A stretch of DNA of 6,690 bases, taken from positions 1 to 6,690 of the forward strand of contig JAJRZV010000044.1 of NCBI GenBank assembly GCA_024275095.1. The letters run 5' to 3'. The notes under the pieces were generated by a model, which worked only from the letters and a program-made list of their open reading frames with translations, searched no databases and was not told where the DNA came from. Source of the stretch: a bacterium. Lineage in GTDB: Bacteria > JAJRZV01. This document shows positions 651-5,728 of this stretch, piece by piece; within the stretch, counting starts at the first letter, position 1, and each line of letters begins with the position of its first letter. Made by a program: the position numbers and the translations under genes.

Positions 651-1409
651 TTACGACCGGATTATGGGACTGTCCATGGTGTAGAGGCTCCCATAAGGTC
701 TGTGTGTAACAGGTATGAGCTTGGTAAATTCTGCGTCAAGGATCTCTTCAGCATTTAATTCGAATTCCCGTGCAAAGTCCTTGATGGTTTCGCGCAGGAA
801 ACGACGATCCTCTTCCGTAAGTGGCACCTCCCCTACCTCTTTCCCCATAAAATGCCTATCCACACGCCCCCTGAGAAAAATAGAACCTCCGTGCATACCC
901 GTTGCCAGGTAATCACCGGTAAGCACGCCCGGAGTACGGCCGAACATACCCAGCACAATCACACGACCGCCAGCCATGTACTCGCACAGAAATTCCCCTG
1001 CTGTACCGCCGATAACAATGGTGGGAATGAGGTGTTTGTAGCCCTTCATGTGGATACCCACGCGATAACCGCAATCACGCAAAATATACAGTTTGCCTCC
1101 ACGCATGCCGTAACCGCATACATCACCTGCCATGCCGTGAACCACAATTTTTCCGCCGTTCATGGTATTGCCGGCCCCATCCTGAGCATTACCGTAAACA
1201 GTAATGCGCGGGCCATTCATGAAAGCCCCAAGGTCACCTCCTGCAACACCATAAATATCAATCTTCACCTCCCGGGTAATGCCGTCGCCGATATAACGCT
1301 GGCCGTTCACGTTGCGAAGCACGATGTGGTCTTCACCCCGATCAACAAGTTCCCTGATGCGGTCATTGAGAACGCGATAATGAATACCTTTTGCGTCAAT
1401 TTCCACCAT
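651..1409 (-). CDS. gltB3: Glutamate synthase GXGXG (beta-helix) domain protein
   Basis: A 252-residue protein equivalent to the C-terminal domain of the glutamate synthase large subunit, here a separate polypeptide as in archaeal-type enzymes. In the family this right-handed beta-helix is structural and helps hold the amidotransferase and FMN domains together. Glycine-rich turns recur roughly every 16-20 residues from about 50 to 180, for example GVAGGDLGAFMNG, GNAQDGAGNTMNGG, GMAGDVCGYGMRGG, GGTAGEFLCEYMAGG and GMFGRTPGVLTG. An acidic, helical tail follows (about 195-230). The start is ATG 1409, preceded by GGAG with a 7-base spacer. An upstream ATG at 1460 would add 17 residues with no family resemblance and a deep overlap. 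The gene overlaps the end of the amidotransferase gene by 14 bases, which suggests translational coupling. A GlxC/MgsB-type role in N-methylglutamate synthase is the main alternative. Confidence 0.9.
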   Translation of the reverse strand: MVEIDAKGIHYRVLNDRIRELVDRGEDHIVLRNVNGQRYIGDGITREVKIDIYGVAGGDLGAFMNGPRITVYGNAQDGAGNTMNGGKIVVHGMAGDVCGYGMRGGKLYILRDCGYRVGIHMKGYKHLIPTIVIGGTAGEFLCEYMAGGRVIVLGMFGRTPGVLTGDYLATGMHGGSIFLRGRVDRHFMGKEVGEVPLTEEDRRFLRETIKDFAREFELNAEEILDAEFTKLIPVTHRPYGSLYTMDSPIIRS

Positions 1410-2487
1410 CTTCCAGCTCCACAATAGTGGGTTCTCCAGCCTTGGGCATCCAGACCTCATCGGGGTCCGGTATCACCTCGTGTATGGCGGCATTTTCACT
1501 GGCAAGCACGTGAATATCGCCTTTATAGCCTGCCACCAGCGGCCTGAGCTTGATACGGTCGTTGAGACCCATGATACCCCTTTCATAAGCAAGCACAATG
1601 GCAAACGGCCCATTGAGGGCTGCACTTCCGTAAATCATGCGCAAGCGGGTGTAAAATTCACGCTTTTCCTCTTCCATGCGGTCTATATCCTTCCAGAACG
1701 GCGGAGCAAGCACCGAAGCCGCAACATCCAGCGAAAGCCCATGACGTCGAATGAGCAGGTCACACAGATATGCCACAACCTCTGTATCTGTCAGAAGTGT
1801 ACACTTGTACCCGAACATCTCGAGATAGCGTTTATTGATGCCGTAAGAAGAAATTTCACCGTTATGCACAATGCTCCAGTCCAAAAGCGCAAAGGGATGA
1901 GCGCCACCCCACCACCCGGGGGTATTGGTGGGGAAGCGTGTGTGCGCACTCCAGATATGGGCCTTGTACTCGTCAATCCGGAAAAAGTCTGCAATCTCAT
2001 CCGGCTGACCCACACCCTTGAACACGCCCATATCTTTACCGCTGGAAACCACGTATGCACCATCCACCTCTGCATTGATGGCCATGACCACCTTCACCAC
2101 ATAATCGTCGTCGTTGAGGTCCACCATATCGTGAGGGCGTCCCTGCGCGAGAGGTTTGACAAAATACCTTCGGAAGATGGGTGTAGCGCCCAAGGAAAGA
2201 ACACGACGCGTGGGGATCTGTTCCGAGTGTTCCACCTGCATTGTGTTCATGAGAATTTCCTCAGCACGACCAATGGCCGTTTCGTTATCGTACATGATGT
2301 GAAATGCGTAAAAATCTCTATAATCCGGATATATCCCGTAAGCTGCAAACCCAGCTCCAAGGCCGTTTCCGCGCTCTTCCATGTTGCAGATGGCGCAAAT
2401 AACCTTTTCACCTTCAATGAGCTTCTTTTTCCGGTGAATAATACCCACCAGACCACAACCTGAGATGCTTCGCGACCACCAGCTCAT
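1396..2487 (-). CDS. gltB1: Class II glutamine amidotransferase subunit of split glutamate synthase
   Basis: A 363-residue Ntn-type glutaminase that releases ammonia from glutamine for transfer to the FMN subunit; it matches the N-terminal domain of GltB. The nucleophile is Cys11 in SGCGLVGI, so a 10-residue leader must be removed to expose it, as in GltB and other class II enzymes with propeptides. Other visible elements are HTRFPTNT (182-189, Arg184 contacting the glutamine carboxylate), AHPFALLDWSIVHNGE (196-211, with the Asn209-Gly210 oxyanion pair), TDTE (233-236, Asp234), GPFAIVLA (293-300), RIKLRPLV (311-318) and LASENAAI (328-335). Length fits stand-alone archaeal-type GATase subunits, which lack the central domain of bacterial GltB. 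ATG 2487 overlaps the oxidoreductase stop in an ATGA arrangement and is preceded by GAGGT with a suitable spacer. GlxB/MgsA-like enzymes are close relatives, so the final acceptor is inferred from context. Confidence 0.92.
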   Translation of the reverse strand: MSWWSRSISGCGLVGIIHRKKKLIEGEKVICAICNMEERGNGLGAGFAAYGIYPDYRDFYAFHIMYDNETAIGRAEEILMNTMQVEHSEQIPTRRVLSLGATPIFRRYFVKPLAQGRPHDMVDLNDDDYVVKVVMAINAEVDGAYVVSSGKDMGVFKGVGQPDEIADFFRIDEYKAHIWSAHTRFPTNTPGWWGGAHPFALLDWSIVHNGEISSYGINKRYLEMFGYKCTLLTDTEVVAYLCDLLIRRHGLSLDVAASVLAPPFWKDIDRMEEEKREFYTRLRMIYGSAALNGPFAIVLAYERGIMGLNDRIKLRPLVAGYKGDIHVLASENAAIHEVIPDPDEVWMPKAGEPTIVELEDGGN

Positions 2488-3752
2488 GCCCTTACCTCAA
2501 GCAACGACTTTCTCAGCTTTTCGGGAAATTTATGAAAGTGAAACCGACTCTCTGAAAGAGCATGAACCATGTCCCCCAGTTCTACGCGGTTCCTGATGAG
2601 AGCTGTGTACACTCCTGCATTTTCCACATCTCTTGTAAGCACGTAACCCGCAAGACGCCCGCCAGAGACAATAAATTTTTTGTACAGGCGCTTCTCCTCT
2701 TCAACATAGGTAATGACTTCATCTCCCTCCTCGGGCGTGAGTTTACCGGCAGAAATAATCTCCAGTTCTCCAAAATGAAAAGAGTTCATGCTGAGGGCTC
2801 CTGGATAGGTCCGGGACTTACCCGCCATGTTAAACCCCGCGATTTTTCCCTGTTCGGTAGCCACTGGAATAATGGGAATCACCTGCTTCTCGCCTGTGAG
2901 AACCTCAGGAGCCTGAGCCACATCTCCAGCAGCAAAAACGTCTTCAACGCTCGTTCTCATGTGCTCGTCCACCAGTACACCACGATCCACCTTTACGGAA
3001 GAAGACCTCAGAAAGTCCACGTTTGGCCTCACACCGATAGCCACAACGAGTATATCAGGCTCAAGTACATCCCCACTTTTCAGCTTCACGGACTTGAGCC
3101 TGCCATCTGCTGAAATGACCTCTTCCACCGTGTCGGAAAGCCGGACGGAAATGCCCTCTTTGTGAAATTCCTCCTCGATCCACCCCGCCACTTTCGAGTC
3201 CACTGCACGCGGCAGCACCTGATTCTCCAGTTCCACGATGGTGACCTTCACACCCCGGGCTGCCAATCCTTCAGCACACTGGGTTCCGATAAGACCCGCT
3301 CCAATAACAACGGCAGATCTCACCTCCCCCGCATCCACGCGGTCTTTAATGCGCATGGCATCGCCCCAGGTTGTAAACGTATAAACATCTCTGCACTCAT
3401 CAACACCCTTTATTGGAGGAACAAACGGCACGCCACCTGTAGCAATGAGCAGCCGGTCGTAGGTAAACTTTTCACCACTCTCCAGAACTACTATTTTAGC
3501 GACATCGTTGACCTCTACAACAGGAGACCCGAGCCCCGGCTTTACCTTCATGCGCTCGTACCAGTGTTCACCTCGATAATACATATGATGTTCGGTAAAA
3601 CGCATGGACACGTAATCCTGAAGAAGGGCCTTGGCGTAAGGTCGAAATTTTTCAGCCGAAATCATAAACACTTCACCATCAGCATCCACGCGCCTGATAG
3701 CCTCAGCTGCCCATACAGCTGAATACGAATTACCAACGAGCACGTACTTCAT
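2484..3752 (-). CDS. FAD-dependent NAD(P)H oxidoreductase, putative electron-input subunit of glutamate synthase
   Basis: A 422-residue two-dinucleotide-fold flavoprotein of the rubredoxin reductase / nitrite-reductase-like family (Pyr_redox_2). The FAD fold opens at residue 1 with VLVGNSYSA (4-12), a relaxed form of GxGxxG. ATGG (104-107) and VFAAGDVAQ (272-280) complete the FAD site. The second nucleotide fold is VVIGAGLIG (148-156), with acidic Glu174 at the end of the next strand, suggesting NADH rather than NADPH. There is no CxxC pair, so it is not a disulfide reductase. The C-terminal ~110 residues resemble the dimerisation part of the family. I chose ATG 3752 because it begins exactly at the first beta strand and has GGTGA 8 bases ahead; GTG 3764 is the alternative and adds four residues. 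It overlaps the ferredoxin gene by 23 bases and the amidotransferase gene by 4. It probably passes electrons from NAD(P)H to the neighbouring polyferredoxin and so stands in for GltD. That role is inferred from gene order. Confidence 0.88.
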   Translation of the reverse strand: MKYVLVGNSYSAVWAAEAIRRVDADGEVFMISAEKFRPYAKALLQDYVSMRFTEHHMYYRGEHWYERMKVKPGLGSPVVEVNDVAKIVVLESGEKFTYDRLLIATGGVPFVPPIKGVDECRDVYTFTTWGDAMRIKDRVDAGEVRSAVVIGAGLIGTQCAEGLAARGVKVTIVELENQVLPRAVDSKVAGWIEEEFHKEGISVRLSDTVEEVISADGRLKSVKLKSGDVLEPDILVVAIGVRPNVDFLRSSSVKVDRGVLVDEHMRTSVEDVFAAGDVAQAPEVLTGEKQVIPIIPVATEQGKIAGFNMAGKSRTYPGALSMNSFHFGELEIISAGKLTPEEGDEVITYVEEEKRLYKKFIVSGGRLAGYVLTRDVENAGVYTALIRNRVELGDMVHALSESRFHFHKFPEKLRKSLLEVRA

Positions 3753-4203
3753 CGTTCCTCTCACCCCGATCTTCGAACAAAAGAGCGCCGTTAGGACATG
3801 CCCTCACACATGCAGGGATTTCACTCTCAGGACACAGATCACATTTGTGCGCAATTCGCCGGGTCTCAAGCTGCCTTCTTTTTATGACGCCGTAAGGACA
3901 TGCCATGATGCACATCCAGCAACCAACACACTTTTCAGGATTAACGAGAACCCTCCCTTCCTCGTCCCGGTAGAGCGTACCATTTTTACACGCTTCTAGG
4001 CATTCGGGTTCTGTGCAGTGCCTGCACATGAGGGAAAAACTTACAGGTCCCTCGGCGTACACGGAGCACCGTTCTGTAAACCTGAGGTTTTCTCTGAAAT
4101 ATGCATTGATAACGTTCTTTGACTGCGAATGTTCCACCACGCACGCTACCTGGCACAGGTAACACTGAACGCAGAAGTCTTCTCTTGGATAAACAACCTT
4201 CAC
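3730..4203 (-). CDS. Polyferredoxin with four [4Fe-4S] motifs (HycB/DmsB-like), glutamate-synthase associated
   Basis: A 157-residue electron-transfer protein with 16 cluster cysteines in four groups: Cys11/14/17/21, Cys60/63/68/72, Cys92/95/98/102 and Cys121/124/132/136. This is the pattern of the HycB/DmsB/NrfC-type iron-sulfur subunits, which carry electrons between redox partners. It has no Tat or Sec signal and no membrane segment, so it should act in the cytoplasm. It lies between the FMN synthase gene and the FAD oxidoreductase gene, which suggests it relays electrons from the flavoprotein to the synthase, doing the job of the Fe-S domain of GltD. The start is GTG 4203, one base after the TGA of the FMN subunit, with AGGAG 6 bases ahead. 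Its 3' end overlaps the oxidoreductase gene. It might also accept electrons from other donors, which the sequence cannot settle. Confidence 0.9.
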   Translation of the reverse strand: MKVVYPREDFCVQCYLCQVACVVEHSQSKNVINAYFRENLRFTERCSVYAEGPVSFSLMCRHCTEPECLEACKNGTLYRDEEGRVLVNPEKCVGCWMCIMACPYGVIKRRQLETRRIAHKCDLCPESEIPACVRACPNGALLFEDRGERNDEVRARW

Positions 4204-4204
4204 T

Positions 4205-5728
4205 TCACGCTCCTGCCGGCTTGATTCCCAGTATTTCCAGCTCCCAGTCCTCCAGGCCCACGCCCCTCAATCGGTCTCTATTACCGCGGAGACTCTCTAT
4301 GGCATTGATGCCCATCAACCCCAGCATCTCCTGGATCTCATGGGCCCACGCCTTGAGAAGATTTGCAGCCCGCTCAGCTCCAATATCAGGGTTCACACGC
4401 TTCATGAGTTTGGGATCATTGGTTGTAATTCCCCACGCGCATTTTCCCGTGGGACACTGCATGCAAAGCGTGCATCCCATGGTCATGAGTGCAGGTGTGC
4501 CGATGTACACAGCATCGGCACCGAGAGCAATGGCTTTGATCACGTCGCTGCTATCGCGAAATCCTCCAGCTGCCACCAGTGCTGCATGATTCCGAATTCC
4601 TTCCTCGCGCAACCGCTGATCCACAGCAGCAATGGCCAGCTCAATGGGAATTCCCACGTTATCGCGGATAACCTTAGGTGCAGCACCTGTACCACCCCGA
4701 AATCCATCAAGTACCACTATGTCCGCACCGGCTCTGACAATTCCACTGGCAATGGCTGCCGAGTTGTGCACTGCCGCAATTTTGACAGCCACAGGCTTTT
4801 CATAGCGTGTCGCTTCCTTGAGAGCGTAAATGAGCTGGCGTAGATCCTCGATGGAGTAGATGTCGTGGTGAGGCGCAGGAGAAAGGGCATCGCTACCTTC
4901 AGGAATCATGCGTGTTTCAGATATACGCTTGAGCACCTTGTTCCCCGGCAGGTGACCTCCGATACCCGGCTTGGCTCCCTGCCCGATCTTAATCTCGATG
5001 GCGGCACCTGCATTGAGATATTCGGGAGAAACCCCGAAACGGCCGGAAGCGCATTGCACGATGGTGCGGTGCCCGTACTGGTAGAGTGAGCGTGGCAGTC
5101 CGCCTTCTCCTGTATTCCAGTAAGTACCCACCTCCACGGCAGCCCTGGCCAGTGACTCACACACGTAATAATTGATGGAACCGTAGGACATGGCTGTAAA
5201 CATCACAGGTACTTCCAGGATGAGCTGTGGTCCAAGCGTTGTCTTCAGGGAAGCCTTTGCTCTGGGATCAATGGCGTTGATGTTGTCAGGCTTGCGTCCC
5301 AGATACGTGCGGAGTTCCATGGGTTCACGCAGAGGGTCAATGGACGGGTTGGTTACCTGGCACGCATCCAGTACGATATGGTCCCAGTAATTCTTAAAGG
5401 GTTTATTGTTACCCATACCTGTAACGATGATGGCTCCGGTGGATGCCTGTTTATAAAGTGCCTTGACATGGACAGGAGACCAGTTGTTATTGGGTCTTAC
5501 ATTTCTTTCAGTGGGTCTTACAGTAATACAATCGGTGGGGCAAAAAGCATCACAGCGGTGACATCCCACACAGTGGTCATCCAGAGTGTACACCAGGTCC
5601 CTTTCCTCATCGTACCGCGTGGCTTCATAGCTGCACTGAGTGACACAGGCGAGACAACGAATGCACCTGTCGTAATCCCTCTCAACCGTGAAGTCGTAGT
5701 ACCAGTCATATGGACTATTATAAAGCAA
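4205..5728 (-). CDS. gltB: Glutamate synthase FMN domain subunit with N-terminal 2x[4Fe-4S] ferredoxin domain
   Basis: A 507-residue catalytic subunit that should reduce the 2-iminoglutarate formed from 2-oxoglutarate and ammonia to glutamate. Residues 12-72 are a two-cluster ferredoxin domain (Cys22/25/28/32 and Cys53/56/59/63). Residues from about 90 onward are the FMN-binding TIM barrel of glutamate synthase: TGEGG (206-210), IKIGQGAKPGIGGHLPG (246-262), SPAPHHDIYSIEDL (283-296), VAVKIAA (313-319), VVLDGFRGGTGAAP (338-351), and the phosphate-binding AAGGFRDSSDV and GADAVYIGTPAL near 386-414. Cys419-x5-Cys425-x4-Cys430 matches the GltB [3Fe-4S] ligand spacing, with an extra Cys422. The start is TTG 5728 after a perfect GGAGGTGA. 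It is the first gene after the promoter at 5758-5787. The amidotransferase and GXGXG parts are encoded downstream. Family members also include GlxD/MgsC (N-methylglutamate synthase) and archaeal GltB2; context with the redox genes favours glutamate synthase. Confidence 0.93.
   Translation of the reverse strand: MLYNSPYDWYYDFTVERDYDRCIRCLACVTQCSYEATRYDEERDLVYTLDDHCVGCHRCDAFCPTDCITVRPTERNVRPNNNWSPVHVKALYKQASTGAIIVTGMGNNKPFKNYWDHIVLDACQVTNPSIDPLREPMELRTYLGRKPDNINAIDPRAKASLKTTLGPQLILEVPVMFTAMSYGSINYYVCESLARAAVEVGTYWNTGEGGLPRSLYQYGHRTIVQCASGRFGVSPEYLNAGAAIEIKIGQGAKPGIGGHLPGNKVLKRISETRMIPEGSDALSPAPHHDIYSIEDLRQLIYALKEATRYEKPVAVKIAAVHNSAAIASGIVRAGADIVVLDGFRGGTGAAPKVIRDNVGIPIELAIAAVDQRLREEGIRNHAALVAAGGFRDSSDVIKAIALGADAVYIGTPALMTMGCTLCMQCPTGKCAWGITTNDPKLMKRVNPDIGAERAANLLKAWAHEIQEMLGLMGINAIESLRGNRDRLRGVGLEDWELEILGIKPAGA

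Follow-up and report, generated by a model that had tools for sequence, protein, structure and literature searches.

A split glutamate synthase locus with an AorA/AorC-type redox pair and predicted NADH dependence

Results

A split glutamate synthase cluster enclosing two redox genes

The window analyzed here, 6,690 nt that make up the entire contig JAJRZV010000044.1 of a draft bacterial genome (2.45 Mb, 97% complete), carries a minus-strand gene cluster that is predicted, with NADH as the probable donor, to encode a five-subunit glutamate synthase (GOGAT). Along the minus strand the genes are a NAD synthetase cut by the contig end, gltB2, a ferredoxin, a flavin adenine dinucleotide (FAD) oxidoreductase, gltB1, gltB3 and a hydrolase. 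Only 1 nt separates gltB2 from the ferredoxin gene, and the genes that follow overlap by 23 nt (ferredoxin and flavoprotein, counted from the ATG at 3752), 4 nt (flavoprotein and gltB1, sharing ATGA) and about 14 nt (gltB1 and gltB3); because these joints are so tight, we read the five middle genes as one operon. A previous, sequence-only reading of the window had described two separate, overlapping redox genes at 2484–4203 inside a cluster of three split GltB genes, and we recover all of these, both redox genes on the minus strand (Table 1). The E-values of the gene identifications, combined with their conservation across phyla, exclude a chance origin.

The glutaminase, flavin mononucleotide (FMN) and GXGXG domains lie on three separate genes whose catalytic residues are intact by profile and motif checks. 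In GltB1, a short leader precedes the N-terminal nucleophile Cys11 (CGLVG), a residue shared by 84 of the 86 proteins in the alignment; the remaining two have a gap at this position. GltB2 contains the 2-oxoglutarate/FMN motif IKxGQGAKPGxGGxLPG common to solved GltB structures, as well as an N-terminal 2x[4Fe-4S] ferredoxin domain (C22/25/28/32 and C53/56/59/63) and a C-terminal cluster motif (C419/422/425/430), and at least 91 of 93 relatives retain the cysteines of both. With cluster ligands and catalytic residues present, all five genes look intact as judged from their sequences, and the split core is most likely a glutamate synthase, predicted to form glutamate from glutamine and 2-oxoglutarate. 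The genome contains one split gltB2 copy and, elsewhere, two glutamine synthetases and a glutamate dehydrogenase.

The redox pair is related to AorA and AorC

The smaller redox protein had been described as a four-cluster ferredoxin, and it does contain four complete four-cysteine motifs (C11/14/17/21, C60/63/68/72, C92/95/98/102 and C121/124/132/136), all 16 cysteines of which are invariant in 35/35 aligned sequences. Its AlphaFold2 model (pLDDT 83) matches the folds of 9mqx_G (Z 18.1) and 8c0z_C (Z 14.7), and AorA of the Aromatoleum aldehyde oxidoreductase complex is among its top sequence matches of solved structure. The last cluster cysteine is followed by 8–21 residues in the 35 relatives and by 21 in the window protein, where the model is of low confidence; in AorA, a C-terminal helix of about 20 residues drives the formation of filaments.

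The open reading frame of the flavoprotein opens with a GTG at 3764, and its likely start is the ATG at 3752, with AGAGG just upstream. The protein combines a Pyr_redox_2 domain, with both dinucleotide-binding regions present, and a Rubredoxin_C domain (PF18267, 37.8 bits vs a cut-off of 25.9). This domain bears out one part of its earlier description as rubredoxin-reductase-like; its closest solved relative by sequence, however, is AorC (8c0z_E) and not a rubredoxin reductase. In a fold comparison with the AlphaFold2 model (pLDDT 94.9), 8c0z_E aligned over 414 residues with Z 40.9 and 31% identity, the top identity listed, and several classical ferredoxin reductases in the same list exceeded it in Z. 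The best NCBIfam match is PadH (NF045765), and since the score of 344.2 bits falls under the equivalog cut-off of 475, the flavoprotein is not PadH itself. The PadH/PadI pair of phenylglyoxylate dehydrogenase does resemble the window pair, as PadI also matches the ferredoxin, but its catalytic subunits are different.

The Aromatoleum proteins provide the closest comparison, likewise consisting of a four-[4Fe-4S] polyferredoxin beside an NAD(H) FAD subunit. In structure 8C0Z the AorA cluster FS4 lies 9.5 Å from the FAD of AorC (PMC10413684), and the enzyme reduces NAD+, not NADP+ (PMC6365974). It differs from the window system in its tungsten-enzyme partner, in its AorA filaments and in working mainly in the NAD+-ward direction. 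Class III tungsten enzymes have pairs of this type, there termed WorS/WorN (PMC13328260), and with carbon monoxide dehydrogenase (CODH; PMC4703632) they occur as CooF/FNOR. As the partner genes in the window encode GltB domains, we consider its pair a relative of the AorA/AorC module rather than a class III tungsten oxidoreductase. Among the loci we inspected (numbered L), the two CooF/FNOR families likewise lie side by side or around cooS (L147-L150, L154-L158); L150 and L155 have a CODH gene of the Prismane family adjoining the pair, and L159 has an aldehyde oxidoreductase (AOR) gene. FNOR differs in having Cys42, often Val174, and a Ni-CODH partner, whereas the window flavoprotein has Ala42, and its GOGAT cluster contains no CooS gene.

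Residues 174 and 42 follow the catalytic partner

Where the second strand of the NAD(H)-binding Rossmann fold ends, an acidic residue is the standard sign of NADH preference. In the flavoprotein this is Glu174, a numbering that is exact from the ATG at 3752 and aligns the residue with Glu171 of AorC; PDB titles list variants of BphA4 and NADH oxidase altered at a region that we take to be equivalent. All 66 GOGAT-linked flavoproteins have Asp or Glu at position 174, where the nine CODH-linked ones have Val or Glu; at position 42, each of the 65 GOGAT-linked sequences with an aligned residue has Pro or Ala, and 9/9 CODH-linked ones have Cys. Partner labels were also strongly clustered on a tree of 44 flavoproteins, requiring 4 changes vs 12.1 in shuffles. 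The NADH preference that had been proposed from Glu174 is strengthened by this constraint and by the use of NAD+ by the AorC enzyme (PMC6365974), and the predicted specificity of the flavoprotein thus points to NADH.

The pair is one of several units found with the split core

The window genome is the sole member of its phylum in the genome collection that we surveyed, which marks its lineage as rare. A split gltB2 was present in 100/299 Bacillota genomes, and in 54 of these 100 a flavoprotein gene lay on the same strand within 6 kb. The flavoprotein followed gltB2 in 51 of the 54, and in 50 the spacing was 437–610 bp, leaving room for a ferredoxin gene. Inspection of the remaining loci added two pairs and one fusion (L100:589-3393), in which ferredoxin and flavoprotein form a single 935-aa protein with long low-complexity inserts, encoded upstream of gltB1, which brings the linked total to about 57/100. 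Among 247 Desulfobacterota genomes, 45 had a split gltB2 and 27 of these 45 a linked pair (25/43 loci plus L010 and L052); these pair counts are lower bounds, as about five candidates were scored per genome and two pairs were overlooked by the scoring. Many of the pair-carrying Desulfobacterota loci match the window gene order exactly, and across the loci inspected the pair shifts position within the GOGAT cluster as one unit. The sequence-only reading had anticipated comparable neighborhoods in other anaerobes, and they do occur, in Clostridium thermocellum (PMC9888227) and commonly in Bacillota and Desulfobacterota; the rarity of linkage that it had named as evidence against its proposal is not what the survey showed.

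Archaeal loci were hand-picked from 106 genomes and are not a random sample; in the 31 picked from Halobacteriota we found an FrhB-type F420 subunit in 11, the pair in 8, and the three core genes alone in 10. The FrhB-type subunit directly follows gltB3 in methanogens and related archaea (L041-L044, L048, L217-L220, L222, L226-L230, L236). This arrangement corresponds to the F420-dependent glutamate synthase (FGltS) of methanogens, which, like the window system, joins a split GltB core to its own electron-input subunit encoded in the cluster, but whose input subunit is of the FrhB type with predicted use of F420H2 (PMC3448663). In a third arrangement, GXGXG is fused to a GltD-like Fer4_20/Pyr_redox part and a C-terminal ferredoxin (L045:2084-4285, L046:5491-7659, L127, L139, L225), in Spirochaetes, some Bacillota and one Desulfobacterota genome. 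Since the pair, the F420 subunit and the GltD fusion alternate across lineages, we regard the pair as a unit that can be exchanged for others on the shared core.

Several other loci showed departures from these arrangements. In L152 (4961-6208) and L153 (5152-6402) the gene after a canonical fused GltB-GltD operon encodes a flavoprotein of the GOGAT group with no accompanying ferredoxin, and no split gltB2 was found in either genome at the survey cut-off; the flavoprotein may be left over from a split enzyme that has been replaced. The ferredoxin gene of Candidatus Methanolliviera is followed by an unrelated open reading frame, by eye possibly a transposase (L009:10963-11955), and the flavoprotein and gltB3 stand together at the start of another contig (L235:1-5308). 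Flavoproteins of about 460 aa beside split gltB in some Bacillota were considered as an additional input module and set aside, as they carry the dihydrolipoyl dehydrogenase motif GGTCLNxGCIPTK. Split gltB near dihydrolipoyl dehydrogenase and an HdrB-like Cys-rich protein, in some cases with lipoate genes, was seen in seven Bacillota loci (L106, L107, L109, L110, L114, L131, L134).

The only GltD homologue in the genome is NfnB-like

GltD, the partner of GltB in the NADPH glutamate synthase, is a single protein with its own Fer4_20 Fe-S domain. The reaction and the catalytic domains of that enzyme are shared with or homologous to those of the window system, which differs in having two proteins of other subfamilies in this role; a profile search did not detect Fer4_20 (PF14691) in the flavoprotein, which is therefore not a GltD-type fusion. 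A gltD elsewhere in the genome had been named as a possible partner of the split subunits. The sole homologue, of 475 aa, is encoded on another contig (C122), overlapping and directly behind an NfnA-type gene (PRK06222). It passes the TIGR01316 ‘gltA’ model with 619 bits, a name that is ambiguous because the member of this family from P. furiosus is now called NfnI (PMC8097209). We rejected it as the gltD of the split synthase since it sits in an NfnAB-type operon, and read it, from its sequence and neighborhood, as NfnB-like, that is, as part of NfnAB.

With the recurrent linkage of the pair and an NfnB-like protein as the only GltD homologue, the pair looks like an electron-input module distinct from GltD, as had been suggested. 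Two stronger wordings of that suggestion did not hold. GltD need not have been ‘replaced’, as the split core may never have had one, and F420 subunits or GltD fusions are found in other lineages; and ‘different ancestry from GltD’ is too strong, because GltD and the flavoprotein both match Pyr_redox_2.

The adjoining NAD+ synthetase gene is probably not part of the enzyme. A 586-aa NadE gene also follows gltB3 in two Desulfobacterota loci (L183, L186).

Table 1. Features of the 6,690-nt window
Feature	Coordinates	Strand	Details
gltB3, GXGXG domain	651..1460	-	GXGXG E=8e-36; likely ATG 1409
gltB1, class-II glutaminase domain	1396..2487	-	GATase_2 E=6e-16
FAD/NADH oxidoreductase, AorC/WorN/FNOR type, proposed NADH entry site	2484..3752	-	best PDB match 8c0z_E, E=4e-54
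Glu174 codon of the flavoprotein	3231..3233	-	second-strand end, NAD(H)-binding Rossmann fold
Four-[4Fe-4S] polyferredoxin, AorA/WorS/CooF type, proposed electron relay	3730..4203	-	157 aa; Fer4_11 E=5e-17
gltB2, FMN/synthase domain of split glutamate synthase	4205..5728	-	Glu_synthase E=3e-133; TTG start after AGGAGG
Glutamine-dependent NAD+ synthetase, 3′ part, open to contig end	5808..6690	-	PRK13981 positions 264-544 of 546

Discussion

The locus probably encodes a five-subunit NADH-dependent glutamate synthase. In the proposed mechanism, NADH would reduce the FAD of the AorC-type subunit, which would pass single electrons via the four clusters of the AorA-type polyferredoxin to the N-terminal ferredoxin domain of GltB2, and from there electrons would travel through the C-terminal cluster to the FMN; the FMN would then reduce 2-iminoglutarate, formed from 2-oxoglutarate and the ammonia that GltB1 frees from glutamine. 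Sequence analysis provides the gene set with its tight, operon-like spacing, intact ligands and catalytic residues, the homology of the pair to AorA/AorC, its recurrent linkage to split gltB and its movement or fusion as a unit, and the acidic residue at 174 with a non-Cys residue at 42; from these, and from the F420 subunit or GltD fusion that fills the same place in other lineages, we infer a physical complex, this electron route and NADH as the physiological donor.

A counterpart in C. thermocellum bears directly on this proposal. Its consecutive locus tags Cthe_0197 (GATase), 0198 (synthase), 0199 (ferredoxin) and 0200 (FAD oxidoreductase) (PMC2852388, PMC3478167) correspond, together with a neighboring gene, to the cluster Clo1313_2032-2036, which has been deleted in vivo (PMC9888227). 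Like the window, this cluster combines a split GltB with a 4Fe-4S ferredoxin and an FAD pyridine-nucleotide oxidoreductase; it differs from the window order gltB2-Fdx-FAD-GATase-GXGXG, and the donor proposed for it is ferredoxin, as yet unconfirmed. We count as support for an NADH module that the protein levels of Cthe_0197, 0198 and 0200 increase together after ethanol treatment (PMC3478167).

Some observations weigh against NADH as the donor. Searches for NADH- and NADPH-linked GOGAT activity in C. thermocellum were negative, and the deletion's redox phenotype has been interpreted as ferredoxin-linked (PMC9888227, PMC4676874). In the flavoprotein, Met42 of AorC, thought to lie between FAD and cluster, is replaced by Ala42. 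Finally, the pair is absent from many genomes that have all three core genes, which makes it probable that the core can run on another donor. On balance the evidence favors NADH without settling the matter.

A ferredoxin-dependent synthase, in which soluble reduced ferredoxin would be the main donor, binding to either the polyferredoxin or the GltB2 ferredoxin domain, and the FAD subunit would act as a side valve for electron exchange with NAD(H), is possible though distinctly less probable. It would account for the missing NAD(P)H-linked activity, it fits the H2 and product shifts of the C. thermocellum deletion (PMC9888227), and the common pair-less core leaves room for a feeder other than this flavoprotein. 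However, flavoprotein and ferredoxin stay together as a unit, the NADH-type residue of the flavoprotein is constrained, and the closest characterized relative of the flavoprotein is NAD+-specific (PMC6365974). The ferredoxin-linked claim for C. thermocellum was drawn from an annotation, which the authors call unconfirmed, and from flux changes in the deletion strain, not from an assay (PMC9888227).

The use of two donors, whether by confurcation of NADH and ferredoxin or by bifurcation of NADH electrons to iminoglutarate and ferredoxin, appears unlikely. The many low-potential clusters would suit such an enzyme, the step from NADH to iminoglutarate has driving force to spare, and the top fold match of the polyferredoxin belongs to an electron-bifurcating aldehyde oxidoreductase (9mqx). 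Against this, bifurcation in class IV tungsten enzymes is tied to WorABC subunits, which are absent here (PMC13328260), and the AorC type, with its single FAD, is assigned to simple NAD+ transfer. A published account of a bifurcating-enzyme family makes no mention of glutamate synthase. It is a little more doubtful still that the enzyme is an energy-coupled glutamate synthase joining NADH and ferredoxin, through which ammonia assimilation would help anaerobes to balance their ferredoxin pool.

We think it very unlikely that the flavoprotein shares the operon incidentally and acts as a reductase of peroxide, disulfides or rubredoxin: its superfamily does include NADH oxidases and CoA-disulfide and rubredoxin reductases, and it has the Rubredoxin_C domain, but the redox cysteine at position 42 is missing in all 65 GOGAT-linked proteins, the flavoprotein is nearly always paired with the four-cluster ferredoxin and once fused to it, and the cluster contains no rubredoxin gene. 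Least likely of all is that the core is a related amidotransferase such as N-methylglutamate synthase, which likewise has separate subunits for the three GltB domains, given the intact GATase cysteine and FMN/2-oxoglutarate motifs, the presence of just one gltB2 alongside two glutamine synthetase genes in the genome, and the effect of the C. thermocellum GOGAT deletion on ammonium assimilation (PMC9888227).

The arrangement itself is not new, since it is widespread and has already been annotated and deleted in C. thermocellum. We did not find the identity of the GOGAT pair with AorA/AorC (WorS/WorN, CooF/FNOR) in the open-licence literature, and earlier statements elsewhere are possible; the contribution made here is this link together with the residue signals at positions 174 and 42. 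It may also bear on existing annotations. Cthe_0199/0200 have been gap-filled as formate dehydrogenase and nitrate reductase (PMC2852388), and many gut ‘Fdh’ matches scored as glutamate synthase too (PMC11338639), so that formate dehydrogenase-type labels are possibly misannotations of this redox module; its identification would correct the model entries with formate dehydrogenase or nitrate reductase as the name of these genes.

This GOGAT is found in many anaerobes, among them the biofuel organism C. thermocellum, and several assays have failed to reveal its donor. The AorA/AorC link, the conserved acidic residue and the diagnostic position 42 reduce the donor question to one assay. More broadly, one catalytic core appears to accept at least three alternative electron plugs, of NADH, F420 and GltD type, and one plug serves several unrelated catalysts, GOGAT, CODH and AOR.

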